Assembly: GCA_027475525.1 (NCBI GenBank)
Contig: JAMWFC010000032.1
Location: 1,240,001 to 1,304,000 of the forward strand
Direction: 5' to 3'
Length of the DNA stretch: 64,000 bases
Source of the DNA: Macrolepiota albuminosa
Taxonomy: Eukaryota > Basidiomycota > Agaricomycetes > Agaricales > Agaricaceae
Shown here: positions 17,500-51,281 of the stretch, one piece after another
Layout of the letters: each line of letters starts with the position of its first letter
Numbering within the stretch: position 1 is the first letter of the stretch
Notes under the pieces: model-generated
Told to the model about the DNA's origin: nothing
Database searches by the model: none
What the model saw: the letters and a program-made list of their open reading frames with translations, nothing else
Program-made: the position numbers and the translations under genes

Positions 17500-17640
17500 T
17501 GGCAGTGGAAATAAGATTTAGTCGACATCATTGATCCTGCCAGTGAGTCAATCAATAATGCTGCCACTTCACTCTCATCACAAGATCCTTACTCTCTCAA
17601 GGGCTGGCTGCATCATGCAAAGTTGGTAACCAACCATTGT
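17500..17640. repeat. Third, partial copy of the 3525/4615 repeat block
   Basis: Contains GTCGACATCATTGATCCTG and the ATCAATAATGCTGCCACTTC segment in the same order as the copies at 3545 and 4645, then TCCTTACTCTCTCAAGGGCT shared with 4710. It follows the decayed LKR/SDH piece just as the first copy follows the parent gene, so the two were duplicated together. Confidence 0.8.
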
Positions 17641-18042
17641 GTATATTTTTGTACCTGGAGAGGTGAGGATTCAATCCTGCCATTGGCCAGGAAATCGAGT
17701 CATGTAACAGACACGTGACCCTGAACCATTCTGGTGGCTTGCTTCAGCAAAAGACATACACCCGTAGTTTCATCGAGCCATTGCCGCGTCTGCTTCGAGC
17801 TGAGTCTAGGCCGCTCGAAGACTTTTTCGATGCAGTCTCGAAGAATGATCTCTCATTGACATTACTCTTCGGAAGACTGATTAATGAGGGTTGCGCAGGG
17901 AAACTGGCGTATCTTCAATAGCTATTATCATTATAGCGTCATAGTAAATACATAATGCAGGATCACATACACTCATCTTTCAAACTTGATTGGAACTTTG
18001 GCCTCTTATATTCGATGAATCAAGCTTAATCAAGGACTACAT
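17641..18042. other. No gene recognised
   Basis: The 400 bp between the repeat block and the F-box duplication have only a short unsupported ORF (17,715-17,921). Confidence 0.5.
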
Positions 18043-29355: not shown

Positions 29356-29402
29356 ATCAAAGGGGATGGGCCGCTGCGACGCACGGCGAGACCGAGGTCT
29401 AC
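29356..29402 (-). other. 3' terminus of the giant element: hairpin and offset inverted repeat
   Basis: On the plus strand: ATCAAAGGGGATGG (end), then GCCGCTGCGACGCACGGC (hairpin with GCCG/CGGC and TGC/GCA stems around GAC), then CCGAGGTCTAC at 29,392-29,402, the complement of the other terminus at 51,270-51,280. Confidence 0.75.
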
Positions 29403-30167
29403 GGGTTGTCGGAAAGGTGACGCTGTGTGGACGTGGCAGTGTCAGCGTGACATTGTCAGCGTGACGTGCCAGCACGACATTCGAGGGTACGGTAATTTAT
29501 GAGTAAATGAATAGAATTCGTCCCCGTTTATGTAGACGTCAGTATCGAAACTGCATAGATTGATGTCCGTAACCATAATATATAAAAAAAAAGGCATAAA
29601 TGTATCAAAAAAAAATGTCATAATTTCGAAAAACCATTCTTCAGTTCTCATCGTCGTCCCTGTAGGCGTAGAACGTGTTTGCGTCGACACGGCCGCCGTA
29701 CAGGAATAGATACATCCCTGTGCGACGCGGCCTCGCGTTCGTAGCCTGTAAATGGGTTGATTCGACCAATCATAGCGAAAAAAAATGCAACGAACCTGTC
29801 CGTTGTAACAATTGGGTGCTTTCCTCCCCATAACTCCCTTGCAGCGCTTCAATGAGCCAACAACGTACGCGTACGCACGCCTGACCGTTTATCAGGCATT
29901 CAGAGCAAAAAAGAAGGCACAAGGCCACTTACTTCATGCCTTGAACCACACCAGTCACTCTGCCTCCCCTTTTTCCGATTTTACGCGACGGATCGCCGTC
30001 GACGGTTCGGGAAACCGCATGCGATGATTCATCGAAAGTCGAAGAGCAATTCATGGACGTTGTGAGGTCAAAAATAACGTCGAATAAAGCGTTCACGGCT
30101 GGGCAACGTCTGGGACGCTGTGACGATCCCAATGCATCGAATCGCGCGTGACGGTCACGAATACCCT
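29403..30167. other. Element 3' non-coding region
   Basis: Homologous to about 15,165-15,911 of the truncated copy. Short frames such as the one containing SSHAVS...VTGVVQGMK are similar in both copies, but I cannot show that they are coding. Poly-A and poly-T runs lie near 29,585-29,620. Confidence 0.5.
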
Positions 30168-30561
30168 ACCTGCGCCTCAACGTCGCTCCCGTTGGCCTTT
30201 AAACGGCCAACGTTGTCCCCCTTCGTCATCCTTGATGTCCCTGTACGCGGGTTAGATACATTGTGCCCTGCCTGCACCTCAACGTCGCTTCCGTTGGCCT
30301 TAAAACAGCCAACGTCGGCCCTCTTCGTCGTCTTTGATGCCTCCGCACGCGGTTTGACGGTCACCAATACCTACCTGCGCCTCAACGTCGCTCCCGTTGG
30401 CCTTTAAACGGCCAACGTTGTCCCCCTTCGTCATCCTTGATGTCCCTGTACGCGGGTTAGATACATTGTGCCCTGCCTGCACCTCGACGTCGCTCCCGTT
30501 GGCCTTAAAACAGCCAACGTCGGCCCTCTTCGTCCTCTTTGATGCCTCCGCACGCGGTTTG
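30168..30561. repeat. 205-bp tandem repeat (subterminal)
   Basis: Units at 30,168-30,372 and 30,373-30,561 are nearly identical. Each contains two diverged sub-units of about 103 bp with the core ACGTCGCTCCCGTTGGCC followed by an inverted GGCC...GGCC motif. Related units lie in the truncated copy at 14,700-15,165. Confidence 0.85.
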
Positions 30562-30591
30562 GAATATATTCGGCACGCCCTATAATATAAA

Positions 30592-31060
30592 TCATGAGGT
30601 CGGGACGCGGTTTACAAGTATGACGCGATGATTGATCACATAAAACCCGTAACGAACCTGTTCCAGACCGTCTACATCTTCATTGCCGACAGGGGCGCGA
30701 GAGTGGATATTATCGGAAAAGGATATTGAAGGCGTGGGATGAGGACTAGCGGGATACCGTGATGACATACAGACATCGTCATTAGTACCGAATACATTCA
30801 TCGTGTTCCTAATATTTTCTGCGTCTCCGGTTGGGTTATATCCAGGTACGATGAGATCGGCTGAGGTAAAAATATTAGGAACATTTGTTCCCAGATACCA
30901 TGAAGCTTGAGCGTGAGGATGGACGCCGAAGGTATGGATGGGATAATGCAAAGCAGTCAATTCTACAAGCTCTATCACAGATTTAGCACCAATAGGATGG
31001 TCCTGGCCATACCCAAGTTTTATGCGCGGATGAACAAAGGTACCGCCTGAGAAATCCAGA
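30592..31060 (-). other. Unrecognised coding-like fragment in the element (gene Z)
   Basis: A minus-strand frame reads FSGGTFVHPRIKLGYGQDHP, then GAKSVIELVELTALHYPIHT, and ends VNRVPTS near 30,592. A matching but degraded stretch is in the truncated copy (about 14,230-14,345), so it belongs to the element. I recognise no domain. Conservation of the GYGQDHPIGAKS region in both copies is the only hint of function. Exon structure is not resolved. Confidence 0.35.
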
Positions 31061-32007
31061 GACCTTTAGAGTGATTGGTGAGAATTATATGTTGGCAAAG
31101 AAGGACAGACAGTCTTTTGCATCCCTGGCTGCGTTTAAATGACGTGGCGTCCAGTGACCATGCACAGGAATAACCATTAAGTAGTTAACAAATTTGACTG
31201 GCTTACGTTAACGCCGATGAAGTGTGAGCACAACGGTTAATGATGTTCTGCCCTGCTGAGTCCTGTAACAGAAATAGAAACGGTGACTCCGATTCCTTGA
31301 TATCTAGCAGGATAATGAATAATTCATAGATGTTCGTTATTAAAGAAAAAGTAATGGACAACTTCGTACCTGTGTCAATATCAAATCGGGGCTTTTCATT
31401 TTTTCGCCTGAATTGTGAGAGGAAGGGAAAGTGAGCAAGTTTTTATGCTTTACATTCTTCTCCTGTGTTTGAGACGTAGGATATTCAATCGCCAATTCCA
31501 AAGCTTATAATCAGCTGTGATCCAACGATGTCAATGCTGTCAAACCTAGAAAGAACTAATAAGAACAAACTGCCCCGTAGTCCTGGAGACACGTAGTCTT
31601 TCGTCTATATGCCGACTTTACCCACATTTGCATTTGGCTGCATATGACCCGCCAGTGTGACTATATGACGTTTTCAGAACATATAGCCGTGCGGGTGAGA
31701 GGAGACATACCTAGCACTTTGAATGTCGACAACGCATGCTTGAGCGACTCCCATGAGAGCGGATGCTGACAATGAAACTGCTCGTGGGTGCACGGGGATT
31801 GCCGCAGATCTGTCAGGTCACGTTATATAAAGTCTTCCCATGCTCTATTCTAGAATAAACTGCTGGTTCCAGAACTGGTTACATCAGAAAGTGCCAAACG
31901 TGGCGGTCTCGGCTCCTGCAACAGCTGACAAATAGTTGTGTATGTTTATCGTTATTGTATGATTTGTATTTGATTGGCCCATCTGTTCTTGTTCTGCAAT
32001 TGTCACC

Positions 32008-35000
32008 ATGGACGGTACAATGTCATCTAGCCACCCTCGCATTGACAACTCTAAGTTTTACAATCACTCTTGGTATTCAGACGTTGTTCCTAACACTCCT
32101 GACCTGTCCTCTCACTTTGACAGCACACCTGTGGCGGCAAGTTGATTAGGTTTTTTTCATGCATGCTCTGCTGACCTATTCAAGGCTCTTGCACGTGTGT
32201 TGTCTGATGAAGAAAAAAATATTTCTCTTGCTAGCCGTTCAGACGTATTCTCCATATTTCGAGATACTATAAATGATGTCCCTGTTTATTGTGTACCGAA
32301 AGATAAGGCACTCGAAGCCTTTTTCAAAGTCATTTTATCATATCGTGTACTCGACATATACACCCTTGTGTGTGAGGATAAGATGCGCCCTCCACGAACC
32401 TCAGGGCCAATGACGGAGAATAGTCGATCAGTAGGTTCATCCCTATTACCCATTTCATTGATTGAGTTTGTATTTTAGCCGGTAAACCCTTTAAACTCAC
32501 TCCCAAACCTTATCGGGAAATTCCATAAAAACCTCGTACAACATCTGAATAAAATACATGCCGAATCTAGAGGAGAACGACCGAGAGACCGCCCCACCCC
32601 GAAGTTTACAGGTCCACGCATGAAGCTGTATTCCGAACTCACGTCTCGGGTCAGCAATAAGGGTGTTCAAAACACCATAATCAATCTTACAAGTGCGGCG
32701 CTACATCTGAGTTGTCTATTGAAGGTAATCTTAATTGATATCAATTTGAATGTCCATTAAAGTTGCCTCAGGGTAACCTCTATTTACCGTCCGATATCAA
32801 GGCAATCGAAAATATCATCGTTGACGAGTATTGTCCTTCCCGTCCTTATTAGAATGTCTGCTCATTGTCTTCGATGTGTATAGCGAAAGCAGGTCTAGCG
32901 ACCAAGATCAATTAAAATACCTTCATACCGCGCATGGCAGTGCCATCGATGGTGCCGGTTCATATGGTTGCTCGACTATTATGCACAACGCACTTTATTT
33001 GGCATTGCTCGTATCCCCGCTCATGTTACTTCTTCCTCGTGAGTATGGGGTACTAACCGGTAAAGACTCCCTGCTACAGGTAAATTGATCTACCTTTTAT
33101 TTTGTTTGAGCGACTCTGATTGCTTCCAAAGCTTTGGAGGCATGTTGGAGGGCTCGAACGTCCGCGTATCATCGTCGAGGCGGATCGAGCATTATGGCGA
33201 GTGTTATTCTCGGCAGCTCAGGGTGGTGACCTGCTAACCGAGTTGTCATCTGCTTTGAGTACCCTGACCGATCAAATTAACGAAGCGGCACCTGCTTGGA
33301 TCGAAATTGTATCCGTCCCTTCCCCTTCTAAGAAGCGTCTCTGCGATGCTTCGCTTGCTACTCCTGCATCGACCACTTCAACGAGCGACGAAACCCAACG
33401 AGACGATGACGCAAGCCAGTTGTTTGGACCCGCTCCGTTCCCTGTTGGATCGGATGCCTTACCAGGACCCTCTAATCGCTCGGCAAGCCCGTCGGGTCAC
33501 GTAGATGTTCCTCATCCAACCGTCGGCGACAAGCCTGATGGTTATGAGCAGTCTTCACCTACGAGGCCCGATTTTTTTGACAACTTAGGGGACCTTATGG
33601 ACGTCACACCTGATGATTCCCGTATTGACCCGTCTCCTAGTACAGATGCACTTGTCCGTGCATCGGAAGACACCACAGGTTCCGAAAACCTCAACCAGTT
33701 AACCGATGTACCTTCCTCTCCAAATAACGTCCGTGCGTCGGAGGACGCTATGGACGTATCGCCCGTTATTTCCAATCGTGACGTTGAGAATTCCCCTGAA
33801 CCAGACCCTATGGACGTGACGCCCGACGTTTTGAACGTCGAGGATTCCCCTGCAGGTGACCGTGAGGTCAATCATACCAATTCTAATACGGCACCTGCTA
33901 CTGGGGCACCTCTTCCCAATACAGAAGCACCGGATGGAGAGCAGATGACACCCGTAGTTACCGGTATTGGTTCATTAACTTTGGTCAACGCCTCTGAGAC
34001 AACAGTTAACGACGACCTGCCTTCTCCCGAACCGGTGGTGACCGTCGGCCCCGCTAAGACTTCTAAAAACAACCGGAGAAAATCGGCGCGTATTGCGGCT
34101 AAAAACAAGCGACGTAGTACGGCACCCTTGACGCCTAGGAAGAGGAAAAGAAACTTTACGAGTAAGGCGCACGTTGACTCAGATAGCGCGAGCGAGTCTC
34201 CCATGTTGGACTCGGATGGCGCTAGCGATTCCTCCAATGACTCTGCTGAGGTAACGGCGGTTGCTTCACCCCTTGAAAATGTTGAGACAGATCGGGGTTA
34301 TATTGACCTGACCCTTGAGTCTACGGTGAGTGACTGTCTATGTATTGGTCAACTGGTTGTGATTCTGGGTTTAGGATGATGAGGATAGCCATATGGTCAA
34401 AAACCCGAATCGTCTCGATCTCTCAGAATCATGGATCCTCCGTGAAGGGGACGCCGTACAAATACCTTTGACTGGCAGCAATGGGGTATTTGAATACACG
34501 CCAAAATTTCACGTGCGTATATATTCTATTCCGTTATAGTAGCCTTCCGTTCACTGCTCTGTAGCTTGACAGGGACCTTCTTTGGTTTCGCAGAATGTAT
34601 GCCGCATCTATTGCTCGTCGGGATCGACCCTCGTCCGTGAAGGTGATGACTCAAACCGAGTATCACTCTTCATCTCCGCTTGCTCTCTCGAAAATATTGG
34701 CATCGCAATCATGCATTCTTGTTATTGGGAACCAGCATATTGACCCGGGCTTCAATGCGCGCTCCTTATCAGATGTATGTGTCCTGGACAATGTTATCCA
34801 GGTGCATGGTACGTTCTCCTTTGTTTTATTATTATTGTTGTTGTTGTTGTATTTAATTTAATTTAATTTGTTTTATTTTTTCCTGCAGATTTCACCATAT
34901 CTGGTACCGAACGCTTGAAGCATGCAACCCCTCGAGATCTTCTAAGGACACTGGAATCTTCGTACCCAAGATCATTAAGTGCTTTGGATATCCCTGCTTC

Positions 35001-36638
35001 CCTAGAAACTTTTCCGCGCCTCCCGTTCTCAAGCGACTCGGCTGTCTGGGGAAAAGTTCAAGGTCACGGGTACTGTAAAGTGGAGGATTTTTATCCAATT
35101 TCGGATATGCGATGGAATCTAGCATCTACCAGCGGAACCCACCATTACTGGCACATCGATGCCAATGGTTTTGCTACCTTTGTCTTCGTCGAGACTGGCA
35201 CGAAGTTGTGGTTCGTGGCGTCGCCCAAATCTGGAAATTACGATGACTTCGGAGACTGGGATCTTTATGTTAACGATTTTTACACCAGAAAGCCAAACGA
35301 TGAAAAGTGGGACGTCGAGCTACTTGTTCTGCAGCCGGGTTCCATGCTGTTTGTCCACTGGTTATTTCTTTTCCTTATATTATTTACTGATAATATATTA
35401 TTACAGCATTATGCGCCCGTGTCTACCTCACGCCGTAGTTACTCCCATACCAACAATATGCCGCGGGGGTCATTTCTACAACACATTGACTCTCGCTGCC
35501 TCGATAATCGGCTTATATCACCATTACGTTGCTTCCACGTCAATATCCAACACCGACCACGCCTCCGCCTCATACACGGTGCTAATGCGCCTCCTCACCT
35601 ATTTTGTCCTTGTTCTCGTCGACTCTGTGACCGAACACGGTACGTGTAGTCACCACCACATCTGTTTATACTGTTCACGTATGTGCAGATTACGACCATG
35701 GTCATGTTCCGGACACAAACTCATGGGACGGTGTGCTGATCCTTCTTTGTCTATGCAACTATTTTGAGTTGCATGATGCACTTGTGTCTACGAACTATGC
35801 TTGGAGCGGCGACCTTCGATCCTTTGAGGTGTCCGTCAAAAACCGGGTCCGCGCGCGAAGGCTTATGTACTGGTTCTTCTCCAATCACGAACTTGAAAGC
35901 GAGTCCGATGGCAGTGTCATAACGGGTCTGCCTGCGCTTGAATACATATCGTCTCGATTCCTGGCTACACATGCTTGTGTACTTATGCACTACAAAAAGC
36001 TCGCGTGGCTGAATAATTTACGCGGGTCCGACGCAAACACCCCACCGTCAACAACTTGTATCAACATTCAATCCGTCCTCCGTGATGGACCTGCCTGGAA
36101 GGCATACACCCTCGTCCGTCCGCGTCTTGGTGCTTCCGATGTCGATCCTGCCGAATTGACGTTTGCATGGAGGGGAAGCAGATACATTGTTCGCAGAGTT
36201 CCTACAGTTGACTTTTGTGAGTGTTTTCTGCGTCTAAGTCCTGACATTTCTCATCCTTCCTCAGCTTATCCATACATCGACGGTTATGTTTGGCGCGACT
36301 TCACGATTGCACGCCAACTCGGCGTCACGCTCACAAATGCCAATCCCCGACGCGACGAGGACGCTGACTTGTCTTGCTGGGTCGAATTTTCTGTTGATGA
36401 CTTGAAATCTTACAATGCCTGCCCTGAGGTCGGTTATATCAGCGACACCCCCCCCGAATCTCCTGTACTCGCTCCTACAAACACGCCCCCCCGTAGTACC
36501 AGCCCCCGTCCTCCCAGCCCCCGTAGTCCCAGCCAAAGTGATACTTCGAGTAGCTCAAGCAGTGACGACGAATCATCGGACAGGCCCGGTGAGTTGCTCT
36601 GTACAGATATCAATATTGTACTCATTCGCGTAATCTAG
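32008..36638 (+). CDS. JmjC-domain protein carried by the giant element
   Basis: Multi-exon gene with the ATG at 32,008 (MDGTMSSSHPRIDNSKFYNH). An internal Ser/Pro/Asp-rich region contains repeated MDV-S/T-P motifs and a basic RRKSARIAAKNKRR stretch (33,300-34,300). The JmjC core is HYWHIDANGFATFVFVETGT (His-x-Asp at 35,152-35,160), GTKLWFVASPK, and after an intron MRPCLPHAVVTP (third metal ligand His at 35,429). The C-terminal half is typical of large agaricomycete JmjC proteins and ends in a Pro/Ser-rich tail. The metal triad is complete, so 2-oxoglutarate/Fe(II) oxygenase activity on histones or other proteins is possible. A TGA at 32,143-32,145 interrupts exon 1 where the truncated copy has TAC, so this copy may be inactive unless spliced around it. 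Confidence 0.75.
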
Positions 36639-36884
36639 CTGCTAAGCGAATCCGGCGGTCCTAGCGATTTTTTTAATATATATTGTAGTTTATCTCGTGG
36701 CGCGGTTGTTTATTTTTTTTTTTTTCTTTTGTAAACTTAATATCGTGTAGACCATCAAATAAGATGGTATATCCAGTGTCTCCAGTGCTTCAAAAGATTA
36801 AGATTGTTAAGTTGTTTACCACGCAGTAGCCTATAAAAACACTCGAGCCAGTGTTTGTATTTATCTCAAGCTATAGTACCCTGC

Positions 36885-37025
36885 TGCTGTAAGCTATCGC
36901 TCCAGCTATGGTTTACGTAAGCTGTTGCTACAGCAATATTTTATGTAAGCGGCTGCTCCAGCGACGATTTATGTAATCTGCCACTCCGTTATATTTTATG
37001 CAAGCTCCAGCGATGATTTATGTAA
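36885..37025 (-). repeat. 28-bp repeat cluster 1 (reverse orientation)
   Basis: About five diverged units whose reverse complement carries GCTTACGTAAACC followed by a CTGGAGCGA-type spacer. The cluster lies between the 3' ends of the JmjC and Rep-helicase genes, inverted relative to clusters 2 and 3. Confidence 0.75.
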
Positions 37026-37046
37026 TATGCCAGTCCGTTGACGTGA

Positions 37047-40000
37047 TCACTCCGTCCTGATGTATACAGCCAACGTGGCTGTCCTGGAATTGCACTTTGA
37101 CATATCGATCGAGCTAGTAGATTCACTTTCCCTTATCATTTTATGTCCAGTTGTCAATCCGTCGTGATACCAAGATTCGTTGGATGCAGATACGTAGCGG
37201 CTTGAAAAATGAGAGTTGCCAAAATATATAACTCCTTTTAGTATGTACTTACTCACACTCGCAGAATCAACCGTCGTGATTTCAAGCCTCTTATCCACAT
37301 TAACTGATACGCTTGATATATCGAAATAGACAATCGGAGGAGCCATCAAAAACTGAGAAACCTTGATTAGTCGTCTCGCACACGAATCACACCTTGTGCT
37401 TGTATAGCACCAAAAATCATCAACATGCTCACGAATGGATGGTCTTCCTGGCGTCAGTATGATCATTACTGATTTTGATTTAACTCTCCGACGGGCCGTG
37501 GCATGGTGAGCTGGACAGACCATAAACGAATCAAGCACATCTGACGCGTTGACAGATAGTTCGTTAATCAAAGAGTGTACAGACGTGTATTCACCAAATG
37601 GGAACTCTCTGTGATTCCTCTGAGACAGCTTGGTCCGAAGCCATTCCCTGGTCTCCTCGAGGGCCTCATGATCTCCCGGCGCGATACTATGGAAATCTTT
37701 CACTAGATGTTTGTTTAGACGCGGGCTCGATGTACTAAGCTTTCGAGACCATTCTAGAGGGTCTTCTCGCCATAAGTTGTATATAATAGACAATACGGAA
37801 TCGTATGCGCAACTGTTCAGCTTCCATGAACAGGCAAAGGGGGGACAAGTACCTTGCAAAATAGACAGACTATCTGCGTGACTCAACCGTCGGCGTTTGC
37901 TTGGACCATGCTCAATATCTTCCTGTATCTTCCGTTTTCCTGTGCTACATGGATCCTTATATACCTTGGCCCCTCTGGCAGGAACGAAAGTGTTTTTGGG
38001 CAATGGTCTTTCTTGCAGTGGCCTTTCTCTTGATATTATATGCCAATTTATGTCTATGTACCCTGAATCATCAAATTGATCGTTTTTACTCCATCTCAGG
38101 GACGGATGCAAATGAGGAGGAAAGTAGGTGTCGCTTTTGCATCGTCTAAATGATGCTATCAAATCGGACCGTCTTGGAGCGTCATGGAAACCCTTTGGCA
38201 GCTTCCCTACATACCTCAGCCTTGTTATCTCATCCAGCAACTCCAAATCCCGGAACTCCTGGCGTAGTGCGCCAGTTGCTTTTCCTTGAATGACGGTTCT
38301 GTCAAATCCGCGTATTATAATAGTTCCGGCTGCAGTAGCGCTTCGGGACAGTGCTGTATAGTAAGCCTGATGGGATTGACATTTGAACAAGTCAACAGGA
38401 TTGAAAGGCCTAGTCTTCCCTTGGCTAGCGTAATCGGTTATAGCATAGTTGACGAGTATTTCGACTTGTGATCGCGAAATTGTAATCTTTTGATCGTTAG
38501 GTAGACTGCATTCAGTCGAAACTGTGCTTCTAGTTATTGGTACTACGTCTTCAGAAAGACCTTCTATCTGTACGTGGTGCGGTGGATTCTTCAGTTTTAC
38601 AAACAGCGTGTCTATCATACGTTGACCAACAGAACCCGTACACGACTTCCATCCATATACGTAACCTTCTTGACCATTTGTGATACAGAGCTCTGTGGCA
38701 ATGTTAGTCTTGATGATAATAGGTAAGCCGACGCATAGCGACAGTTTGCCTGCAACTTGACCAGATGTGGATGAAGGAGGCTGCTCCCATAAAATATTCT
38801 GAATAGAGGAGTGTAGAGGAACTCTGTTTCTACCTGATGCTCCTCGACCTTTACCTTTGCATGTGCTCTCGTCACCCTTGTCAAGTACAGTATCTTCGCT
38901 AAAGAAATCTGTCAGCTCGAGCCCACTCTCCAGGGCAAATCTACTACTTCCAACCACATTGACAGCATCTTTATCTATGTTGTGTGCTGTTATGATAGAC
39001 ACATTACGGAAGTCATCATTGAGAAGCGAGGAGTCTGAAAGATTGGAGACTCGCCGAGACTCCAGGAACTGGATATCGTCTTTGGTGCATGCTCGATACC
39101 TCATGTTAGCGAGGGCCGTTCTAAAGGATTTGTCGTCTGGACTTTGCATTGTCTGTCTCATATTCTGTCTCAATATGACTACTGCAGTAACCTGGTGCCA
39201 AACTGCTTTACCCAATGCAGCCTTTTGTTCGTTCAGATCGATAGATCGCATACCCACACTGCGACTGTACAGCGCTGCATTCTCACGGCCAGTTACTGGC
39301 GGCAGCTGGGCAAAATCGCCAGCAAACACCATGTTCATACCGCCAAAAGGGAGGTGCGACAGACCTGTAATCTGAGTAAGGCGCGCTGATATCTTGTACA
39401 TATCCCTGCAAGACAACATGGATACTTCGTCGAAAAATACATATTGCACCCCGATAAGGCGTGACTTTACTTGAGCCAGTTGTGCCGGAGAGTCACGTAC
39501 CATATCATTAATTCCAAACAGATAATGGTAAGTCGATCCACCTAACAGTGATGCTGCAGTGCCGGTAGGAGCAACCACTGCAAACCTATGAGATTCTCCA
39601 CGGGCTGCAAAGTATTGGGACAGCGCTTTAAGCACCTGTGTTTTCCCGGTGCCCCCCATACCCCCCATATACATTCTCAACTGTTCGGGGTTAGAAGTGG
39701 CAGCGTGGTTAGCCACTATTCTAAATGCTCTGGTTTGTTCCTCATTGAGATTGAAACTGGTAGTAATTTCGGATATGGTGGGTTCCCATTTGATATTTAA
39801 ATGTTTTTTCTCTAGGAAACTGCGATCACATACTTCCACAATGCCCGGCTTGTTTTGTTCATCTGATCTTCCAACGCGCTGTTCACGAACAGACAACATG
39901 TCTTTTTGCCTATCTTTTAATATGGACGCACGAGTTTCACTGACCTTATGTCTCCAGTAAGTACCGGGCATGTCTGACACCGAAGGTGAATGCTTCGTTG

Positions 40001-43000: not shown

Positions 43001-44267
43001 CAAAAGCGATCAAATGTGCGTTCATTTTGCTGAGACCCGAGGACGACACATGTGTGAAACAGAGAGACCTGCGTACTTTGGCGACAAGGAGCTGTTCAAC
43101 CCAATTTAAACGGGATAAAACAACTGGAACAGCACCAATCCAAAAACCGTTTGCAAGTGCATACTTAGGAACTTTGCCCTTCAACAATGGGATCCTGCAC
43201 TCTGAACAGACAGAATTGCATCTATGATCCAACACCGGGCCTTTTATTTCTCTCACAGATTCCGTTCCTGAACGCCTCTCCACTCTGGTAACTCCTTTGG
43301 CGGATAACACACCGAGAAACCCTTTCATACTTTTTAGAGTATGCATATCCTTAACTGGGCGCAGCAAACCACAAACAGCGCAACCACTTTCTTCTAATTG
43401 CGCTGGACCTGTTTCGTTGCAAAAGTCGCGTATGATTTGAGTAGTTAGGCTTGGTGTAAGAGGCGCAGGAGGAAATTCGGGCTTGTCAGGGCCCCGAACA
43501 TCTGCCTCAAGAACAACTTCATACTTTTGATTACGCACTACAGAGCGTCTCAGCGTGTTTCTTGCTTGTGAACTGAGTTCAGCCGTCAATACAGTAGACC
43601 AACTAACGCATTTCGAGCAACTGTGAGAATTAAATAAATCACTTGGATGTGACGCTCTAAAACGCTTAGGCAGCACAATCCCATGTATACGCGCTACGGA
43701 TCGTAGCTGCTTCAATGTGAGATGTTGTGAAAGGGTAGACAAAGGCAGCCTAGCATGCACGTATCCTGCAGCAATCGGGTACGACAGCAAACCTACATCA
43801 TCTGCATGATTGATGAATTTGAATACGTGTCGCGGGTTGTGTTTGCCCTGACTCGCGTCGATGTACGTATCTACTTGTGCAAAGGAGAACGCATAGGTTT
43901 TACCACCGCCTATAGGTCGCCTGAGGACACGTTTAGGTTTACGAAGCGATCTTTGACGTCCGAGGGACTTGCGCGCGGACAATCGACCACTCCTACGGGA
44001 AGCTCTAGACGCAGATAGATGCGAATACCCTGATATTCTAAGTCCAGGTACCACAAACGATTTTACTGCAGAAAGGGTTGAGCTAATAACGATGTGTTGG
44101 TCCAAACAAGGCCACGTATCAGGCAAACGGTATCCACGCAGTAAGGTTTCGACAGCAAACGTAACATTACATACATTGTTCCTCATCATGCGGTTACACA
44201 ATATAGGACCTAGGTGGCATCGGCGCAGGCACGCTAGAAAATCGTGACGGGACATGAGGGATCGCAT
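37047..44267 (-). CDS. Helitron Rep-helicase with C-terminal USP-like cysteine-protease domain
   Basis: Intronless protein of about 2406 residues from the ATG at 44,267 (MRSLMSRHDF); the open frame continues upstream to 44,738 but that part looks non-coding. Residue numbers below count from 44,738. The Rep domain has the HUH motif TLHLHMLLW (H987, H989) and paired tyrosines YVTKY (Y1225, Y1229), the relaxase signature of rolling-circle transposases. A Pif1-type helicase follows: Walker A GGMGGTGKTQ (K1699), Walker B VFFDEVSML, FAGDFAQLPPV, and DYASQGKT ... YYTALSRS. The last 300 residues resemble a ubiquitin-specific protease: Cys box LNSCAYDSVL (C2310), a CDSC knuckle, and His box GNSHFSSRYV ... 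WYHDG (H2510). No stop interrupts it, so it is probably functional, and its strand fits the element's 5'-3' direction. Confidence 0.9.
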   Translation of the reverse strand: MRSLMSRHDFLACLRRCHLGPILCNRMMRNNVCNVTFAVETLLRGYRLPDTWPCLDQHIVISSTLSAVKSFVVPGLRISGYSHLSASRASRRSGRLSARKSLGRQRSLRKPKRVLRRPIGGGKTYAFSFAQVDTYIDASQGKHNPRHVFKFINHADDVGLLSYPIAAGYVHARLPLSTLSQHLTLKQLRSVARIHGIVLPKRFRASHPSDLFNSHSCSKCVSWSTVLTAELSSQARNTLRRSVVRNQKYEVVLEADVRGPDKPEFPPAPLTPSLTTQIIRDFCNETGPAQLEESGCAVCGLLRPVKDMHTLKSMKGFLGVLSAKGVTRVERRSGTESVREIKGPVLDHRCNSVCSECRIPLLKGKVPKYALANGFWIGAVPVVLSRLNWVEQLLVAKVRRSLCFTHVSSSGLSKMNAHLIAFESPVEKVYHVLPPPRADMDDVLAILFTGPCQPTGEDLKRLPLLVRRNAVKQALEWLKLNHSAYTDIEICDSNLDDYPEDTPPVKVVYKESLEENRTVDPAVYKVDGDNGVSAGDCPFVVHGLTGESLSAKTKDELKGIALKHWHSNGKALLVGHSSRPVNWMKDATVYPQMFPWLFPYGFGGPGCVKGCVSVKVHKGNLLMYHDKRFQRDTGFPFAAFSHEQIRAATTGGFLAIERNDFAHIAERIASLDVELLKSMADRMAKGEIIKPTNQEEQKCFKVIEDVDAVSGRIDGSPITKKHMRNEIWSLVIDKGAPSWFITLSPVDIRHPICLYYAGDNIKFEPDVLLPSDTAYRLIARNPVAGARFFHFMVSAFIKHVLGVDTEHEGLYGHTSAYYGTVEQQGRLTLHLHMLLWLRGSLSPEEARRKIMDPSSDFQRALVEYLESAFTGDFLTGTMDQVIDNIEKSKKMPEYIDPTRTMPQPPPPDHLCRSKQETSINRLPVPTARDASTDSIPDAGQSDPQALPQECVGCEETSNWWTQFRNTVDDIVFRSNVHTCHTSYKKDGSKKLGKENKGCLDNKWGRCKARFPKELFQQTEVDPLTGALNMRKAEPWLNTFTASLSYLFRCNTDVTSLRSGTAVRGVLLYVTKYITKSSLKTYTAFEAVGTVLTKYQDIVNGPLPQQEKARSLMTKMANVMSAKSEMGSPMICMYLLGNPDHYTDHKFTNLHWPSFVREVKRAWPEDQPTDSSYGSDKIAIIRKKGRVVGLSPVFDYIYRGIELRNMTLYEWASRCERVKSTRRGNKSSKSKTANTLTVNFTDDHPLSDSHATLVYPPGQKRVPNFIGPTLPRRDKGDRDEYCVTMLTLFKPWRSGADLKNKYDLWSAAFDNHHFTERQLCLMANMNIKYECMDARDDFYAQLKRGGMAFPGMDNSVSNIRDIEQKDYVDDEDNGQPEDYGIDLDCSNEIGKTELKRRRDMAIMTSTMTNLNWDKPVMAQTSPDTTKHSPSVSDMPGTYWRHKVSETRASILKDRQKDMLSVREQRVGRSDEQNKPGIVEVCDRSFLEKKHLNIKWEPTISEITTSFNLNEEQTRAFRIVANHAATSNPEQLRMYMGGMGGTGKTQVLKALSQYFAARGESHRFAVVAPTGTAASLLGGSTYHYLFGINDMVRDSPAQLAQVKSRLIGVQYVFFDEVSMLSCRDMYKISARLTQITGLSHLPFGGMNMVFAGDFAQLPPVTGRENAALYSRSVGMRSIDLNEQKAALGKAVWHQVTAVVILRQNMRQTMQSPDDKSFRTALANMRYRACTKDDIQFLESRRVSNLSDSSLLNDDFRNVSIITAHNIDKDAVNVVGSSRFALESGLELTDFFSEDTVLDKGDESTCKGKGRGASGRNRVPLHSSIQNILWEQPPSSTSGQVAGKLSLCVGLPIIIKTNIATELCITNGQEGYVYGWKSCTGSVGQRMIDTLFVKLKNPPHHVQIEGLSEDVVPITRSTVSTECSLPNDQKITISRSQVEILVNYAITDYASQGKTRPFNPVDLFKCQSHQAYYTALSRSATAAGTIIIRGFDRTVIQGKATGALRQEFRDLELLDEITRLRYVGKLPKGFHDAPRRSDLIASFRRCKSDTYFPPHLHPSLRWSKNDQFDDSGYIDINWHIISRERPLQERPLPKNTFVPARGAKVYKDPCSTGKRKIQEDIEHGPSKRRRLSHADSLSILQGTCPPFACSWKLNSCAYDSVLSIIYNLWREDPLEWSRKLSTSSPRLNKHLVKDFHSIAPGDHEALEETREWLRTKLSQRNHREFPFGEYTSVHSLINELSVNASDVLDSFMVCPAHHATARRRVKSKSVMIILTPGRPSIREHVDDFWCYTSTRCDSCARRLIKVSQFLMAPPIVYFDISSVSVNVDKRLEITTVDSASVSKYILKGVIYFGNSHFSSRYVSASNESWYHDGLTTGHKMIRESESTSSIDMSKCNSRTATLAVYIRTE

Positions 44268-44865
44268 CACAAAAAGTCGCGTTATCCTGCATCGTTTGAA
44301 CGTCGCCGGAACAGTCGAAAATCTACAATAATATAACCAGGGCATATAGAACCGAAAAAAAACATAGTATCGATTAGGTATGTTGACCCTAAAAAAGGAA
44401 AATACCCAATGCGTGTGTGTCCTGTTGCCCATGGAGTCTTGAATTGCAAGGTATGTGCACTGATTTGTGCACATATCAAACCGTACAGTAGTATGGCATT
44501 CTGTATAGGTACGATAGCATCGTTCAGTATCACGGATCGAGCATCGCTCAGTATCATAGATCGAGCATTGCTCGGCGTTCGACAGAACACATAGGTATCG
44601 AGAGCGCGCGGGTTGAATTACTGTAGGCTCCCTGTCGACCGTACATGAGATATGTCGCACCAAATTAGATACGTGCATACCTTGTGAACGATGCATATTT
44701 AAAAACAACGAGCAATATATGGACTGATAGCCAGGCACCGTACACAGACAATCTCATCGTTGAAATCAATTCACGAGTACAAAACAGGTTACATATGAAG
44801 CAACCATCACTATAGTCACCTGATCTAATATTACATCACAACTCGAAACCATCGATGGAGCGATA

Positions 44866-45215
44866 GCTTACATAAACCATGTCCAGAGTAGCAGCTTATA
44901 TAAACCATTGTTGGGGCGACAGCTTACATAAACGGCTGCTGGAGCGACGGCTTACATAAACCACCGCGAGAGCCATAGCTTACATAAACCATTGCTGGAG
45001 CGATGGCTTATATAAACCACTGCTAGAGCAACAGCTTACATAAACCACCGCTAGAGCAATAGCTTACATAAACCATTGCTGGAGCGACGGCTTACATAAA
45101 CCACCGCTAGAGCAACAGCTTACATAAACCACCGCTGGAGCAACAGCTTGCATAAGCCACTGCTAGAGCGACAGCTTACATAAACCACTACTAGAGCGAC
45201 AGCTTACATAAACAA
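44866..45215 (+). repeat. 28-bp repeat cluster 2
   Basis: About twelve units of the type AGCTTACATAAACCACTGCT + AGAGCGAC, with GCTTACATAAACC almost invariant. The cluster lies upstream of the Rep-helicase gene and is inverted relative to cluster 1. Confidence 0.9.
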
Positions 45216-45528
45216 GCATTAACACAGTAACCGAAGGTAACGCGACGAAAGATTCAAAGCACGTTGGAAGTACAATTAAATCCAGTGGGGTAACAAACCA
45301 TTTATACATAGATTTGCCGAAGAAAAGATTATTCACTCAGTGAACAAACGGTCAAACAAACAACGGCTCAACAAAAAGTCTGTCTATATCGAGACTATCA
45401 AAACAACGCAACACAAAAACGACTGCTAAAAGTAACAAGTAACGTCCGATGGCTAGATGGCTAAGGTCACAACTGATGTCACAATCCGCCCGTCTGCACT
45501 GTGCCTCCCAGGCGGAAGGTCGCCGAAT

Positions 45529-45532
<4 letters not shown>

Positions 45533-45560
<28 letters not shown>
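45533..45560. repeat. Poly-T tract
   Basis: An uninterrupted run of roughly 28 T just beyond the stop of gene X. A similar A run lies at 48,026-48,042 in the gene's first intron. Length is unreliable in assemblies. Confidence 0.7.
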
Positions 45561-45561
<1 letters not shown>

Positions 45562-45605
45562 GGCACAGTCGACCAACAAGGACAAAGGAGCGGCGAAAGC
45601 AGGAA

Positions 45606-48135
45606 CTACTTACGCCCCTTGGACTTGGCCTTCCCCTTAGTGGCACCGGCGCGGTCCACCACAAGAGCAGGTTCAACAAGACGCATCACGTAAGTAGGGT
45701 CGTGCAACACAATGACAAACAGCAAGTTCAAGGTGAGATACCTGAAAAACGTGAGAACATATTCAAACACAACGAACACCAACGTACTTGTGACCACCGG
45801 ACTCATACCAGTTGGCACTAAAACCAACACTGACGACAGAACTTTCCGGAACCTCAACATTGTTGTTTTCGTATGGACGCCAAGAAGGAAGAGAATCAAA
45901 GTCACTGGGCGTAAAACGGAACGGTTGACCGGTTTCTACCCTGCCGTCATACACAGGTACTGAGAAAATGTTAGAACACCATCTGGAAACGAGCATAACA
46001 AGAACCTTTTTGATCAAACTCAACGACCGGCTTATACAGATCGGCAACCCCAGCCGATTTGAACACAGGAGCATCCATCTCGGTAAACATTGAGTTACTC
46101 TTTATACCGGAGGGCCTCTTGGACTTAGGGGTCGCGTACCCACCGTCTGAAGTCACATCAAATGCAGAACCAACAAAAACAACGAATCACGACTCACCAA
46201 CATTGTATGTAGGGGTTTTACCCTCACCTCTAGTAACAAATGCCACACCATTACCAGAAATAGTACCTCGAACACCGTCCGGGAGGTTGAAAACACAACC
46301 CAAAACAGCAAACTGGCGAAGAGACTCTTGATGGAATTCAACAATCTCGATACGATGCTGACCATACTTGTCAGACGGACTCCCAACAAGAACAGAACTG
46401 TCAAATAAATGCGAGGCAGTTACCACTCCAGAGGTAATACAGACACAGAAGGGACCCGTCAAATCCCGAAGAGCCAATCGCTGCTTCGGGGCATTGAGTT
46501 GGACAGGGTCAGTCCTGGCCAAGTTAACGTAGAAGGCGTGACGATTGAATAAAAGAGAAGACGACAACGAACTGTTGAAAAAGTCATACATAAGAACAGA
46601 AAAAAATACAAAACAAGAAGCAAAACGCACGTCCAATTGTCTTCATTCATATGCTCAGCAACAACACCAATGCGCGCGTAACGGATTTTACCGTCACTGT
46701 TCATTTTGTCATATCCAAAAGGCTGGATTATGAGTTGTTTCCTGACGACAAGTTGAGTAAATGCAAGCAAAATAGTAGACGTTGGTCCGCACTTAAGGAA
46801 CGGCAGTCCTTGATAAGTCGACACCATAAACTTTTCTTGGATAGAAGGCTGCATGACCGCATCCACTGCAAGCTCTTCCACAGGATCGAGACAAGGATCA
46901 ATGCTGCAGCAAGACATCAACAAATGAGGTACAGAGACGAAGGGAAGAAAATAAAATAAAATAAACATACGGTTCAACAGCATCTGAGCGGACAATCGAA
47001 AGCGGAGCAGCCAAAGCAGACGAAACGGGGACGGGAGGCACGGGAGACTCGCCATCTTCCGACAATCCATAATCGGGAGCAGAACTATCATCGACAATAA
47101 AGTCCGATAGCGTGTCACTATTATTGTCCGCAACATCCCAATCGTCGATGTTATCATCGCCCGCCGTGACAACAAGAGGCTTCTTAACAAGCGGTCTAGG
47201 TACGGGCCGCTTAGCAATCCTATACCAAAGCGAAAAGAACAAAATGAGCACAAGCAAATAACAGAAGAAACAATCCACACTGACACAACAGGCAAGTCAT
47301 CATCGTCATCGTCAGACAAGTCAACAAGTTTTTTGGGTGCAAATTCGTCATCCAAATTCGGACTAGCGGCCTTGGCCGCAGCTCCGGCACGCGACCTTTT
47401 AGGGCTTGACTGGCTCGCAAACAAAGCCTTCTCCGTCATGGTACGGGAGCGCCTTGAGAGTGCAAAACATAAGGCAAACCGTGCATGAACGCGAACAAAT
47501 CAGAAATCACGTACACAGCACGACCACTTGACAAGGTCGCATCTTCAGCAGTCAATCCAGCCATAGCCCGACTACATAGCAGCAGTCAAGCAAAGTAACA
47601 AGGAAAACGGAGATACAAACATGACAGGTGTATCAACGGACGGAATAGACACAGCCCTCTTTTTCTTGGGCGACGGCGTGGCAGGAACACTAACAGAACT
47701 GACACCAAGACATTAAGTAAAACGATAGTCACAAATACAACAAGTAACACACGAACCCATCATGCGAAGCAGAAACCTTTCGCTTAGACGGCGACCCGCC
47801 GTCAATAGACCTAAATAACATTAGCATTACAGATTACAACACGAAAAGAGTACTCACCCAGCAGATGGTTCGCCTGTTTCAGATCCAGAAGCTGTCGCCG
47901 CAGAAACGCTATCAAATATGCTACAATAAGCAAATTAGCAAGACCAACCGGAACTGAAAGAGCCGTACACACGCTTGCAACCTATCCGCACTCCTGCACC
48001 GAGGACAACAAGTTTTTTTCTTTAAAAAAAAAAAAAAAAAAATCAAAGACACCAATATAAAACACACATGGTCTTGAGTTGGTCAACAAGTGTCTGAGCC
48101 TTATTCTCTTCAGACTTTATCTTGCGAGGGGGCAT
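45606..48135 (-). CDS. Element companion gene X (unknown function)
   Basis: Multi-exon gene with the ATG at 48,135 (MPPRKIKSEENKAQTLVDQL), introns with GTGAGT/GTATG donors, and its stop at 45,606. The N-terminal third is rich in SPKK/SPKR motifs and acidic runs (LSDDDDDDLP), suggesting a nuclear protein. The ordered part includes GYDKMNSDGKIRYARIGVVA, RTDPVQLNAPKQRLALRDLT and NLPDGVRGTISGNGVAFVTR. The C-terminal section is VPVYDGR ... FDSLPSWRPY ... SVVSVGFSANWY ... YLTLNLLFVIVL, then a Lys-rich tail. In the middle, an in-frame ATG at 47,439 overlaps a possible stop, so it could be two genes. I recall similar proteins beside agaricomycete Helitrons, but no domain name can be given. A DNA-handling role is inference only. 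Confidence 0.55.
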
Positions 48136-48882
48136 GGGTTCGTATAGTGACACAAAACACACAGAGAAAAAAGAGGAGGCGGAGAGGGGATTATCAAGGA
48201 GAGTGGACAAAGGACACTTATATAGAGCAGCAAGCTGCACGTCGCATCAAGGAGGGAAAGACAGTATAACGTAAAGAACGGTGTATCCCTTTCTTCGAAC
48301 AAAATAAAATTAAGTAGAATGAAAATTTCAGTAAGACAAGATTCACAGAAGGCACAGCGGGACCTTTTAGATAGAACACAAGCATTGCAGATCCACAACT
48401 CGTAACGTTGTACCTTAATAGCCGTAACCTCAGAAGGGCAACACACTAGAGATTCACCAATGAGAGGACAAAGAAAGAGAGACAGAGGAACATCATAAGG
48501 TCTGTCCCTGAACAGTTGAGGATGATAAAACGAAGCCAGAAACGAAGCCAGAAATTAATGTACCACTGGAGACAGACTACGGGAAGCGTCACGATGACAG
48601 GCACAGAAGGTACCAAACAACCGAAGTGCATATACCAAAAAAGACGAAGCCGATAGGAAGGAAACGAGTTGGGTATGGGATAGGTAAACCAAGATACGTC
48701 ACGTCATACACAGGAAAACAGTCGAGGCACTCACTGATCACTTCCTGATACTATAAAGAATACACAGATAGCACAACAGACTAGAAGGATATCAAGACAC
48801 AGCAGCAATACAATGTACGTCTAGCCACTGTCCGACAGGTGTATTATACTGACAGAGCCACAGTAGATATATCATAACAAAA
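48136..48882. promoter_or_regulatory. Divergent intergenic region between genes X and Y
   Basis: About 750 bp separate two oppositely oriented starts and hold no ORF with support. It presumably contains both promoters; I see no defined motif. Confidence 0.35.
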
Positions 48883-50049
48883 ATGACCTTAGGAGCAGAT
48901 TACGACACAGAGGCAGCAAGTAAGCAACGTTTACAGACATCTCAACATCAGTAGACTCATCACGCAACCAAGAAACTGCGATTGAGAAAGCCATACGCAA
49001 AGGAGAAGAAGAAAACGACGTTATGTTGACCAGCGTCGCAAACGTAAGTAACCAAACCGCACACCGTATGTCGGACTATCAACATACAAGACATAACAGG
49101 AACCAAGATGGGCAGAAGCCATTAAGACAAAAGAAGTAAATAAGCCTCACTCATGGCGACTAGTGTACGTCCATGAAGACGGCGATATATCAGACGAGGA
49201 GTTGGTTTTCACGGTATACGGAGCCATAAGCGAAAAGGATCTCCTGCCACTGAAAAGAGAAACACGCATGAGGTGCGTTCAATGAGATCCAACAGAACAG
49301 AGTCTAATCACATAAAGCAGCGACTACAGACGACTGAAATACATGAAGCAATACGTGAAGCTGGACGGCCTAGGAACAAAACATTTCGACGATGCAATGA
49401 TAGGAGCAACGGAGATTAACAAGCACTTCGAACTTGAATTCTCAGAAGGCCGTCTCGAATGCTGGTATAACGCGTTCCTCGGACAGCAAGAAAGATCACT
49501 AGACATCGCGAACAGGATATTTACACCGACATGCGATGTAGAGAAGAACGAACAACACATTCCCATGGACAGGGAACTAGACCCGTACAATCTCACAGAG
49601 AAAATAAGGCAGAAAGGGTTCATGATTACCGAAGACAACGTGGTCCAATTTTCGAAGATGAAGGTAAATGAAGGGAACAGGACAACGTAAGTACAACACA
49701 ATAGAGCAACACACAAAACTGAAGGAAACTTAAGATACGAACATTACAAGCCGGAAAGATTCCGAGTGGGAGACCTCGTTTCTGTCCAGCTATCTTTCCA
49801 GGTTGTTAACCTGGCGGGTGGGAAACTCAAAATGCTTCTCGTATTGAGATCCATGACTCTTATCGAGCACCGGTCTAGCTTCATAAAAGTGAGCGACAAA
49901 GCAACACAGTAAACACACTGATAAACACCCCACAGAACGTAGTATCCAACGAAGGGACCAAGAACAAACTGAAGAGAAAGCTGAGAGACATTTCAGACAA
50001 GGGCCAGAACAGAATGGACGTAGACGCATCAGGCAACGGCAACCAATGA
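48883..50049 (+). CDS. Element companion gene Y (unknown function)
   Basis: Six exons can be joined with GT-AG introns in consistent phase, though intron 1 (33 bases) is unusually short. It starts at the ATG 48,883 (MTLGADYDTEAA) and continues WRLVYVHEDGDISDEELVFT, then DYRRLKYMKQYVKLDG ... IRQKGFMITEDNVVQFSKMK. Exon 49,735-49,888 holds KPERFRVGDLVSVQLSFQVV and GGKLKMLLVLRSMTLIEHRS. The last exon (49,936-50,049) is basic and ends at TGA. The protein has about 300 residues, with no signal peptide or membrane segment. It is divergent from gene X and inside the same element. Its function is unknown; the beta-rich RVGDLVSVQLSF ... KMLLVLRSMTL block is the most conserved-looking part. Confidence 0.6.
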
Positions 50050-50365
50050 TTACATCGATCAAAAAGCCTTCAATTGCGACCACGACACTCGGATCTCATT
50101 CGCTTTGTCACATTGTCAATAACGGCCTCGTTGATCCTTGCCAATCGCATATAGTTTCGACTACGATTCACAGACACTTGCTTGGGTCTGACTATATTGT
50201 CGTCCTGCTTCCTTCCCTAACGAGTCCACTGGACCCGTATTTTGTTTCTCCCTCATCCACCGATCCTTCTCGTTTTAGTCGCTTTTATAGTATTCCCGCA
50301 TCATCATATTACCAAATACACTGCATTTGCCCGCAAATGTAATATCACAAACAAACAACCGCGAA

Positions 50366-50460
50366 GGCTTACATAAACCGCAGCTGGAGCGACGGCTTAC
50401 ATAAACCATAGCTGGAGCAACAGCTTACAGAGCAGCAACTTACATAATGTCAACTTACAT
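50366..50460 (+). repeat. 28-bp repeat cluster 3
   Basis: Three to four units with GCTTACATAAACC and GCTGGAGCGACG spacers, the same family as clusters 1 and 2, just beyond the end of gene Y. Confidence 0.8.
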
Positions 50461-50938
50461 AACCAGCGGCCAGGAATTTATTTCTATTTTCTTTTGACGC
50501 GACCCCAACTTGTACATATTTTATTCACTTTCGTACTTCTTCACTTTTGTTGTTCACCAGTTCATTAGTTCAATAATATTTCATTCCTGCTGACAAGTCA
50601 ATAGCTACCTATCTAGTGTAAGTAGATTATGTTATCGTAATATAACGATTCATCTATCGACGATGTAAACGACTGCTGGAGCAAAGAAATAATGAAACAT
50701 TCTCACATCCGTCAGAAAACATAACAAATTACATACACAATAAAAATATACAAACAGGAAACAAATGAAAATAAATCAAGATAAAGGATAGCAAAACAAA
50801 CAAATAAAAATAAAAAACACATTCGTATATATAATCCATCGACTTGGTGAAATAAACACAATAATGCGCTCAACACAAGAAAATTATATATATGTGTATA
50901 TAAAGAAAACGCAAGGATTTTTCAACATGAGGATGAAC
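50461..50938. other. AT-rich non-coding DNA of the element
   Basis: Strongly AT-rich with no gene visible. Confidence 0.5.
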
Positions 50939-51185
50939 ATAATAGCCGGTAGAGATAGCCGAAAGGGAGCAAATATCGAGGACATGGCAGTAATAGCCGG
51001 TAGAGATAGCCGAAAGGGAGCAAATATCGAGGACATGGCAGTAATAGCCGGTAGTAATAGCCGGTAAAGATAGCCGAAAGGGAGCAAATATCGAGGACAT
51101 GGTAGTAATAGCCGGTAGTAATAGCCGGTAAAGATAGCCGAAAGGGAGCAAATATCGAGGACATAGCCGGTAGAGGAAGAGAACG
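50939..51185. repeat. 51-bp minisatellite near the element's 5' end
   Basis: About four units of TAGCCGGTAGAGATAGCCGA + AAGGGAGCAAATATCGAGGA + CATGGCAG, with inserted partial TAGCCGGTAGTAA units. It lies about 100 bp inside the 5' terminus. Confidence 0.9.
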
Positions 51186-51257
51186 GCAACTGCCGAGATC
51201 ACGTGAGGGGCACAAATTTCGAGGACAAAATGCGCGCCAAAGCAGGTAGTAAAACCT

Positions 51258-51281
51258 CAGTCTACTAAAGTAGACCTCGGA
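51258..51281 (-). other. 5' terminus of the giant element: inverted repeat and palindrome
   Basis: Minus strand: TCCGAGGTCTACTTTAGTAG, continuing ACTGAGG. The first 11 bases after the T (CCGAGGTCTAC) match the offset repeat at the other end. GGTCTACTTTAGTAGACT forms a near-perfect hairpin. Confidence 0.7.

Follow-up and report, generated by a model that had tools for sequence, protein, structure and literature searches.

The window analysed is a 64,000-nt stretch of the Macrolepiota albuminosa assembly GCA_027475525.1 (contig JAMWFC010000032.1, positions 1,240,001-1,304,000, forward strand). In this window, an aldos-2-ulose dehydratase (AUDH) gene is split by an island whose sense is the minus strand, with its 5' end at 51281 and its 3' end at 29356. 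From the 5' to the 3' side, the features are:

51282..53013 (reaching at least 53013), minus strand: upstream part of the AUDH-like host gene, interrupted by the element
29356..51281, minus strand: complete mobile element, 21,926 bp, delimited by shared ends, the AUDH frame and paralogous empty sites
51243..51281, minus strand: 5' terminus TCCGAGGTCTACTTTAGTAGAC..., where a 6-bp terminal hairpin can be drawn, host R-T preceding it (flank comparison, shuffles)
51270..51280, minus strand: 5' copy of the 11-bp asymmetric terminal inverted repeat
50940..51164: 51/64-bp tandem repeats, 5' subterminal
50361..50457: 28-bp repeat array past gene C
48883..50049, plus strand: gene C, hand-built six-exon model, 312 aa, without known domain
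45612..48135, minus strand: gene B, of which the final seven exons form the model B2 (499 aa); model incomplete in the middle exons
44846..45213: 28-bp repeat array immediately upstream of RepHel
37047..44753, minus strand: open frame of RepHel, 2568 codons between stops (Pfam domains, motifs)
36888..37039: array of 28-bp repeats separating the 3' ends of RepHel and gene A, in opposite orientation to the other two such arrays
32008..36638, plus strand: gene A, modelled by hand with 12 exons, 1351 aa, putative JmjC (KDM2/7-like) family
30149..30561: 205-bp tandem repeat, 3' subterminal, two copies, 97% match
29392..29402, minus strand: 3' partner of the 11-bp repeat, inverted and subterminal, 36 bp in from the 3' end
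29370..29387, minus strand: weak predicted 3' hairpin GCCGTGC-GTC-GCAGCGGC, no better than shuffles
29356..29361, minus strand: 3' terminus TTTGAT, identical in 29/29 paired copies
28593..29355, minus strand: downstream part of the AUDH-like host gene, interrupted by the element

Joining the AUDH flanks restores an uninterrupted reading frame exactly at the element's ends, and other genomic copies share these ends, confirming that 29356-51281 is a complete mobile element within the AUDH gene and bearing out the original prediction that the host gene gives exact limits and that both ends are intact. A genome search with the 3' end returned 42 rows, comprising the window itself, 39 other primary matches and two secondary pieces; 37 of the 39 begin no more than 3 bases from 29356, and two extend 6 bases further out. 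All 40 scored rows of the 5'-end search reach 51281 or fall 2 bases short. Because the 5' query stops at 51281, the 5' limit was drawn from the flanks, which differ between copies past that point. Ends lying elsewhere, which would imply nested insertions, were also looked for among the genome copies, and the copies have the same ends. A search of the same assembly for a reconstituted AUDH gene yielded no uninserted allele.

The termini are those originally described, with the start TCCGAGGTCTAC at the element's 5' end on the minus strand, its complement about 36 bp inside the 3' end, and a terminal TTTGAT. In the genome, 166 5'-type end-like patterns were found versus 15 for a reversed-pattern control, and 137 3'-type patterns versus 0. 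Hairpins can be drawn at both termini, but relative to shuffles the 5' one is not strong (z -1.6) and the predicted 3' one is weak (z -0.5), no better than shuffled sequence. The absence of a target duplication noted at first was upheld by the continuous AUDH frame and by ungapped paralogous empty sites for three other copies, which show neither duplication nor loss on insertion. The TT site, in turn, is correct for this copy, which lies between T and T, but not as a family rule: the base after the 3' end in the 29 paired copies is A in 14, C in six, T in five and G in four, whereas A/G followed by T precedes the 5' end in all 29. Among distinct flanks before the 5' end, T is present in 36/36 and A/G in 35/36, and the probability of R-T by chance at the 35 fitting flanks is about 7e-31 (from flank composition, with independence assumed). 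TT as the family target is ruled out by these flanks; the family instead has R-T preceding the 5' end and takes any base after the 3' end.

The RepHel frame carries DUF6570, Helitron_like_N (Pfam E 6.5e-33) with HLH and YVTKYITK motifs, which we take to be those of the Rep (HUH) nuclease, and a PIF1 helicase (E 1.2e-24) with Walker A. Pfam matches in the 2568-aa frame were confined to DUF6570, Helitron_like_N, PIF1, AAA_30 and AAA_19, with no AP-endonuclease or OTU domain. Domain searches gave no significant match at the C-terminus, and the idea of a cysteine protease there (motif NSCAYD) is unsupported. The Rep-helicase does lie in the correct orientation, along the element's 5'-to-3' sense. 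Among the 18 of 760 candidate genome rows that were scored, 12 span at least 2,554 of the 2,568 residues without a stop, 10 of these being full length at 100%; with scoring restricted to these 18, RepHel was placed in just 18 of the 43 copies described below.

A Rep nuclease and a helicase joined in one protein and the lack of a target-site duplication place the element in the Helitron superfamily, and an asymmetric terminal inverted repeat of 11 bp, whose 3' copy lies 36 bp from the end, fits Helitron2. Canonical Helitron1 elements begin with TC, end with CTRR and insert between A and T. The present element has the 5' TC, but ends in TTTGAT and inserts after R-T with any next base. The asymmetric repeat, exact ends, absence of duplication, RepHel orientation and unusual size support a rolling-circle element of the Helitron2/Helentron kind. 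The original assignment as Helentron-like stands as to kind but not in the strict sense, since neither an AP-endonuclease nor an OTU domain was detected, and the family is not confined to a T after the 3' end (5/29).

Three conserved genes, rather than the four to five cargo genes first proposed, accompany RepHel. A profile of gene A built from five relatives matches KDM7 (3n9l) at E 3.7e-7 and KDM2A entries at just 0.12-0.47, relating it, by profile, to the KDM7/KDM2 JmjC demethylases. H905-x-D907 and H982 are candidate HxD...H iron ligands, and the HxD and distal H are common to gene A and the aligned KDM7. A Pfam search of gene A gave no JmjC match, and fold prediction for a relative was of low confidence (mean pLDDT 35.6). 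Domain searches with genes B and C were without significant match, and the fold predicted for a gene B relative was likewise of low confidence (mean pLDDT 27.0). Upstream of B2, the piece B1 is similar to the beginning of Termitomyces P0006, which makes it probable that B1 and B2 form a single gene. Contigs of Termitomyces, Arthromyces, Tephrocybe and Lyophyllum carry relatives of genes A, B and C.

When the listed ends were paired, 43 intervals ran from end to end and were 20.7-53.3 kb long; 26 of them measure 20.8-24.2 kb, and a further 19 intervals are shorter. In element sense, the order from the 5' end is C(-), B(+), RepHel(+), A(-), and it recurs at matching positions, with C placed in at least 42, B in at least 41 and A in at least 31 of the 43 copies; the remaining 12 have no placement of gene A. 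In one pairwise comparison with a divergent copy, which has two stops in RepHel, dN/dS is 0.19 for A, 0.27 for B2, 0.165 for C and 0.165 for RepHel, showing purifying selection on all four genes in this pair. The accessory genes, being common to most copies at fixed places and under purifying selection, are not private cargo as had been proposed. The 157-aa open frame at 30592-31065, in the 29.4-31.1 kb region, was considered as a fifth gene and not accepted; the surrounding 1.5 kb is poorly conserved (51-66% identical to the divergent copy, gapped), and Pfam searches of this and eight other open frames gave no match. A 110-bp piece is nevertheless 92% identical in a second copy within the window.

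Very probably the island is one member of a rolling-circle transposon family of Helitron2 type that is autonomous, recently active and present in many copies, its unit measuring about 21.6-24 kb. An ordinary-size Helitron2/Helentron that captured host genes in this copy could account for genes A and C being antisense to RepHel, and gene capture is known for Helitrons, those of fungi being reported at 6-7 kb and up to 14 kb with captured genes. Such a history is nevertheless very improbable given the matching positions of C, B and A across copies and the selection on them; moreover, the two over-long copies examined both owe their length to nested retrotransposons, not to captured genes. On these grounds, captured cargo was rejected as the cause of the size. 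It is very improbable that the family is a fossil which recombination or passive hitchhiking has maintained while the element makes no use of A, B and C. In 12 copies gene A is absent or was not located, and stops occur in several copies, but near-identical copies, the intact RepHel frames (12 of the 18 scored among 760 candidates) and dN/dS of 0.17-0.27 in one pair of copies argue against it, and recent activity is the best reading of the sequences.

The assembly contains near-identical long repeats and many 77-bp exact tandem duplications, which resemble joining artefacts or unmerged overlaps, and some copies may therefore be mis-threaded. That the island itself is a repeat mis-joined inside AUDH is extremely improbable, however, as no 77-bp duplication occurs within 29356-51281, the AUDH parts meet in frame exactly at its ends, and the joined flanks of three other copies match empty sites exactly. 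Nor do the 43 intervals look like assembly duplicates of one copy, with flank pairs distinct in 27 of 29 paired copies.

For the Helitron2-type transposon thus favoured, an HUH/Y2 Rep would nick the donor at NNRT^TC (5' end) and TGAT^ (3' end), one strand would be displaced and its ends joined into a circle, and the circle would insert after NNRT in the target. Since the element's 3' TGAT itself fits NNRT, closing the circle would create TGAT^TCCGAGG, a junction like the genomic 5' one, at which the circle could be re-cut. A genome search for head-to-tail end junctions as traces of circles found two places with three mismatches each; neither is convincing, and both read as ordinary 5' ends. 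All three accessory genes would serve the element, and gene A may counter its silencing, most likely by opposing histone-methylation silencing. More tentatively, and with the odds somewhat against it, a JmjC histone demethylase could be permanent transposon machinery that strips repressive histone methylation from the copies; such self-protection would explain dozens of near-identical 22-kb copies. As one genome holds dozens of such copies with clean empty sites, the circle model can be tested, as can the target rule and what the element uses its accessory genes for.

Starships, giant fungal transposons mentioned in PMC10799480, resemble this element in large size and in having conserved genes of their own. 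Starships use a tyrosine-recombinase captain, whereas this element has RepHel. The Fusarium oxysporum Helitron2 elements FoHeli1/2, as described in PMC5148889, share with this family an asymmetric terminal inverted repeat whose 3' copy lies tens of bases from the end, a 5' hairpin (here not strong against shuffles) and a transposase without endonuclease, and their insertion between TNAT and T is close to the NNRT rule. They differ in ending with ATTTT rather than TTTGAT without a fixed base afterwards, and the PCR work reported there concerned a 6-7 kb fragment of FoHeli1, in contrast to a unit of about 22 kb here that includes three accessory genes. Helentrons (PMC4067079 and PMC9741609) likewise have subterminal inverted repeats, a 3' palindrome (only weakly predicted here), extra genes, an unmodified target site and a T-rich insertion preference, but their defining AP-endonuclease (often with OTU) is undetected here and their TT rule does not hold for this family. 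The HELPO1 Helitrons of Pleurotus ostreatus, also an Agaricomycete, carry one to four 'captured' genes and, like this family, have gene-like sequences next to RepHel whose origin is unknown; sizes of 7.1 and 13.3 kb are given for them. Unlike this family, they are smaller and have canonical 3' CT[A/T]G ends, and a term search of PMC4289320 gave no occurrence of JmjC.

No report of a Helitron with a JmjC gene or of a giant Helitron2 was found in the open-licence literature. At 21,926 bp, in a unit of about 22 kb, the element is unusually large for its class, as predicted, indicating that Helitron2 elements can form large, stable multi-gene units, beyond small elements picking up gene scraps. 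Fungal DNA transposons carrying TET/JBP genes, including Helitron2 of Agaricus bisporus, resemble this family in having a demethylase-type gene on board, proposed to aid escape from silencing; theirs is a DNA 5mC dioxygenase rather than a histone-demethylase-type JmjC, a term with no occurrence in PMC12730594. Beside these cases, the selected JmjC-family gene is a candidate at the histone level.

The original prediction had placed the ends of the Helitron2-type element at 29356 and 51281, and both positions proved exact: read on the minus strand from 51281 to 29356, the element runs TCCGAGGTCTAC...TTTGAT, and the claimed inverted copy of the 5' end was recovered, 11 bp long and set 36 bp in from the 3' end. 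The gene that the element interrupts is AUDH-like, with the solved aldos-2-ulose dehydratase 4a7k as the sole match in searches with three of its pieces (E 1.2e-9, 2.7e-28 and 2.2e-32); a fourth piece, searched alone, gave no match. Across the joined flanks, the AUDH protein reads DFEF/YNVTGFHV (slash, junction) and aligns with DLDFFNLIGFHV in 4a7k. This joined protein and the junction comparisons indicate that insertion added exactly 21,926 bp to AUDH, with nothing lost or doubled. No uninserted AUDH allele was found in the window's own assembly.

Both flanks were compared for 29 paired copies, representing 27 distinct sites, as two copy pairs have common flanks. T directly precedes the 5' end in 29/29, and the position before it is A or G in 29/29 (target rule NNRT), while the base after the 3' end varies (A14, C6, T5, G4). 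Among 36 distinct 5' flanks (38 loci, overlapping the 29-copy set), all 36 have T and 35 have A/G; the single exception to A/G is an end duplicated at 77 bp. Moreover, the joined flanks of three copies aligned without gaps across the junction with uninserted relatives, and no target duplication was seen.

Empty-site junctions in ungapped alignment with an uninserted relative (slash, insertion point)
Copy on contig C75: CTTAT/ATAAG
Copy at C78:554954: CTTGT/TTATG
Copy at C62:72578: AAGAT/AGCC

The repeat hosting the C75 and C78:554954 insertions is also present close to the 3' end of several other copies (L033, L035, L027 and window 16278-16510), hinting at repeated insertion of element copies into older relatives.

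In a transposition model, an HUH nuclease would cut at NNRT^TC and TGAT^, one strand would be displaced and closed into a circle, and the circle would reinsert after NNRT. The 3'-terminal TGAT itself fits NNRT, and a circle junction, TGAT^TCCGAGG, would therefore resemble a genomic 5' junction. No head-to-tail end junctions were found in the assembly, as expected if the circle is transient, and also if it is absent.

Within the 100-Mb assembly that contains the window, the best 40 of 167 candidate relatives of the 5' end share 97-100% identity, and the 3' end returned 42 matches, of which the 40 primary ones share 75-100%. Short-pattern counts gave 166 5'-type ends (reversed control 15) and 137 3'-type ends (reversed control 0). 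When 100 listed 3' ends were paired with 103 listed 5' ends (100 pattern matches and three from the 5'-end search) at spacings below 60 kb, 62 pairs were obtained among the ends listed, including 26 at 20.8-24.2 kb, 17 at 28.4-53.3 kb and 19 at 1.8-19.1 kb; 38 of the 100 3' ends had no partner. Among the 19 short pairs, many have a 3' end of variant sequence (ATCAATAGGG); these may represent non-autonomous relatives. Two of the 17 over-long copies were examined, and their inserts are nested retrotransposons: in C62:929603-964721 the insert spans 13.5 kb, has retroelement frames and includes a pair of identical direct repeats of 1,044 bp, and in C24:132116-160480 it spans 6.7 kb, with direct repeats of 208 bp that are 99.5% identical. 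Element pairs on contigs C90 and C114 have identical 40-bp flanks, two element ends on C81 are repeated 556,397 bp apart, and two copies on C13 are equal in length; these identical flanks and constant spacings suggest large duplicated or haplotypic assembly blocks.

Exact 77-bp tandem duplications occurred 50 times in the 327,848 bases examined, some loci overlapping, and are probably unmerged 77-mer overlaps at assembly joins. Other periods were 17 instances at the element's own 51-bp repeat, 8 at its 64-bp repeat and one each at two others, and lengths other than 77 bp are almost absent outside the element's own repeats.

Exact 77-bp tandem duplications in the window (many other loci are also affected)
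88-246
1500-1654
12229-12382
13792-13947

None lies inside 29356-51281. Other element copies, including that on contig C95, are affected, and the lengths and frames of single copies therefore need cautious reading.

The element carries a Rep-helicase (RepHel) and three accessory genes, A, B and C, for which models were built by hand.

Genes of the element, with distance from the 5' end (genome searches, copies without a large insertion) and occurrence in 43 long pairs (lower bounds, from the best-scoring candidates)
Gene C: six exons, 312 aa; about 1.3-1.9 kb; at least 42 pairs (best 127 of 406)
Gene B: partial model, 499 aa; 4.2-6.0 kb; at least 41 pairs (best 86 of 414)
RepHel: open frame, 2568 codons; 6.4-7.3 kb; at least 18 pairs (best 18 of 760)
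Gene A: 12 exons, 1351 aa, no internal stop; about 14.6-20.5 kb; at least 31 pairs (best 34 of 825)

RepHel contains DUF6570, Helitron_like_N and PIF1 domains with HLH, YVTKYITK and Walker A motifs, and is stop-free over at least 2,554 residues in 12 of its 18 best-scoring matches. Stops or missing parts occur in several copies of genes A, B and C; because some of the stops listed arise from intron read-through, the stops were not taken as decay. Three arrays of a 28-bp repeat (36888-37039, 44846-45213 and 50361-50457) flank RepHel, one of them inverted, and also lie beyond gene C; they are possible regulatory or Rep-binding sites. Protein relatives were found for gene A (5), gene B (2) and gene C (6), confined among the matches to Termitomyces, Arthromyces, Tephrocybe and Lyophyllum, all Lyophyllaceae. 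The host itself is probably an agaric belonging to this family or close to it. A second gene C-like family, about 40% identical and with open frames roughly 200 aa long, occupies some 30 or more other places in the genome, with no tie to the listed element ends.

A Pfam search with gene A gave no match. A profile of its five relatives matched KDM7 (3n9l) at E 3.7e-7, with KDM2A entries at 0.12-0.47, and H905, D907 and H982 occupy the places of the JmjC iron ligands. From this homology, we hypothesize that gene A may encode an anti-silencing factor. Fungal Helitrons carrying TET/JBP genes, including a Helitron2 of Agaricus bisporus, are described in PMC12730594; searches of an open-licence literature library found no Helitron with a JmjC gene. 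PMC6431247 gives the size of fungal Helitrons as 6-7 kb, with a maximum of 14 kb, and that of maize Helitrons carrying captured fragments as at most 39 kb. The F. oxysporum Helitron2 elements of PMC5148889 have termini similar to those of the element and are themselves inserted between TNAT and T. According to PMC5148889 and PMC4067079, Helitron2 has asymmetric terminal inverted repeats and hairpins without an endonuclease, the latter being additional in Helentrons.

Selection was evident in one copy pair, the element and the divergent copy C95:195521-218165, with dN/dS of 0.165 for gene C (312 codons), 0.27 for B2, the modelled part of gene B (496 codons), 0.165 for RepHel (2,564 codons used; 2 stops) and 0.19 for gene A (1,336 codons used; 15 gapped). 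Identity to this copy is mostly 96-99% in the 5' two thirds and falls to 51-93% in the 3' third, so that the 3' parts of the family are exchangeable or differently aged. Between subfamilies, this 3' third, which holds gene A (sense 14000-21926, window 29356-37281), has diverged much further than the rest of the element, suggesting module exchange. In addition, a second relative lies in opposite orientation at window 10028-15956. No 5' end was found for it within the window; its 3' end is intact at 15956, and its homology to 29356-34074 is 71-92%.
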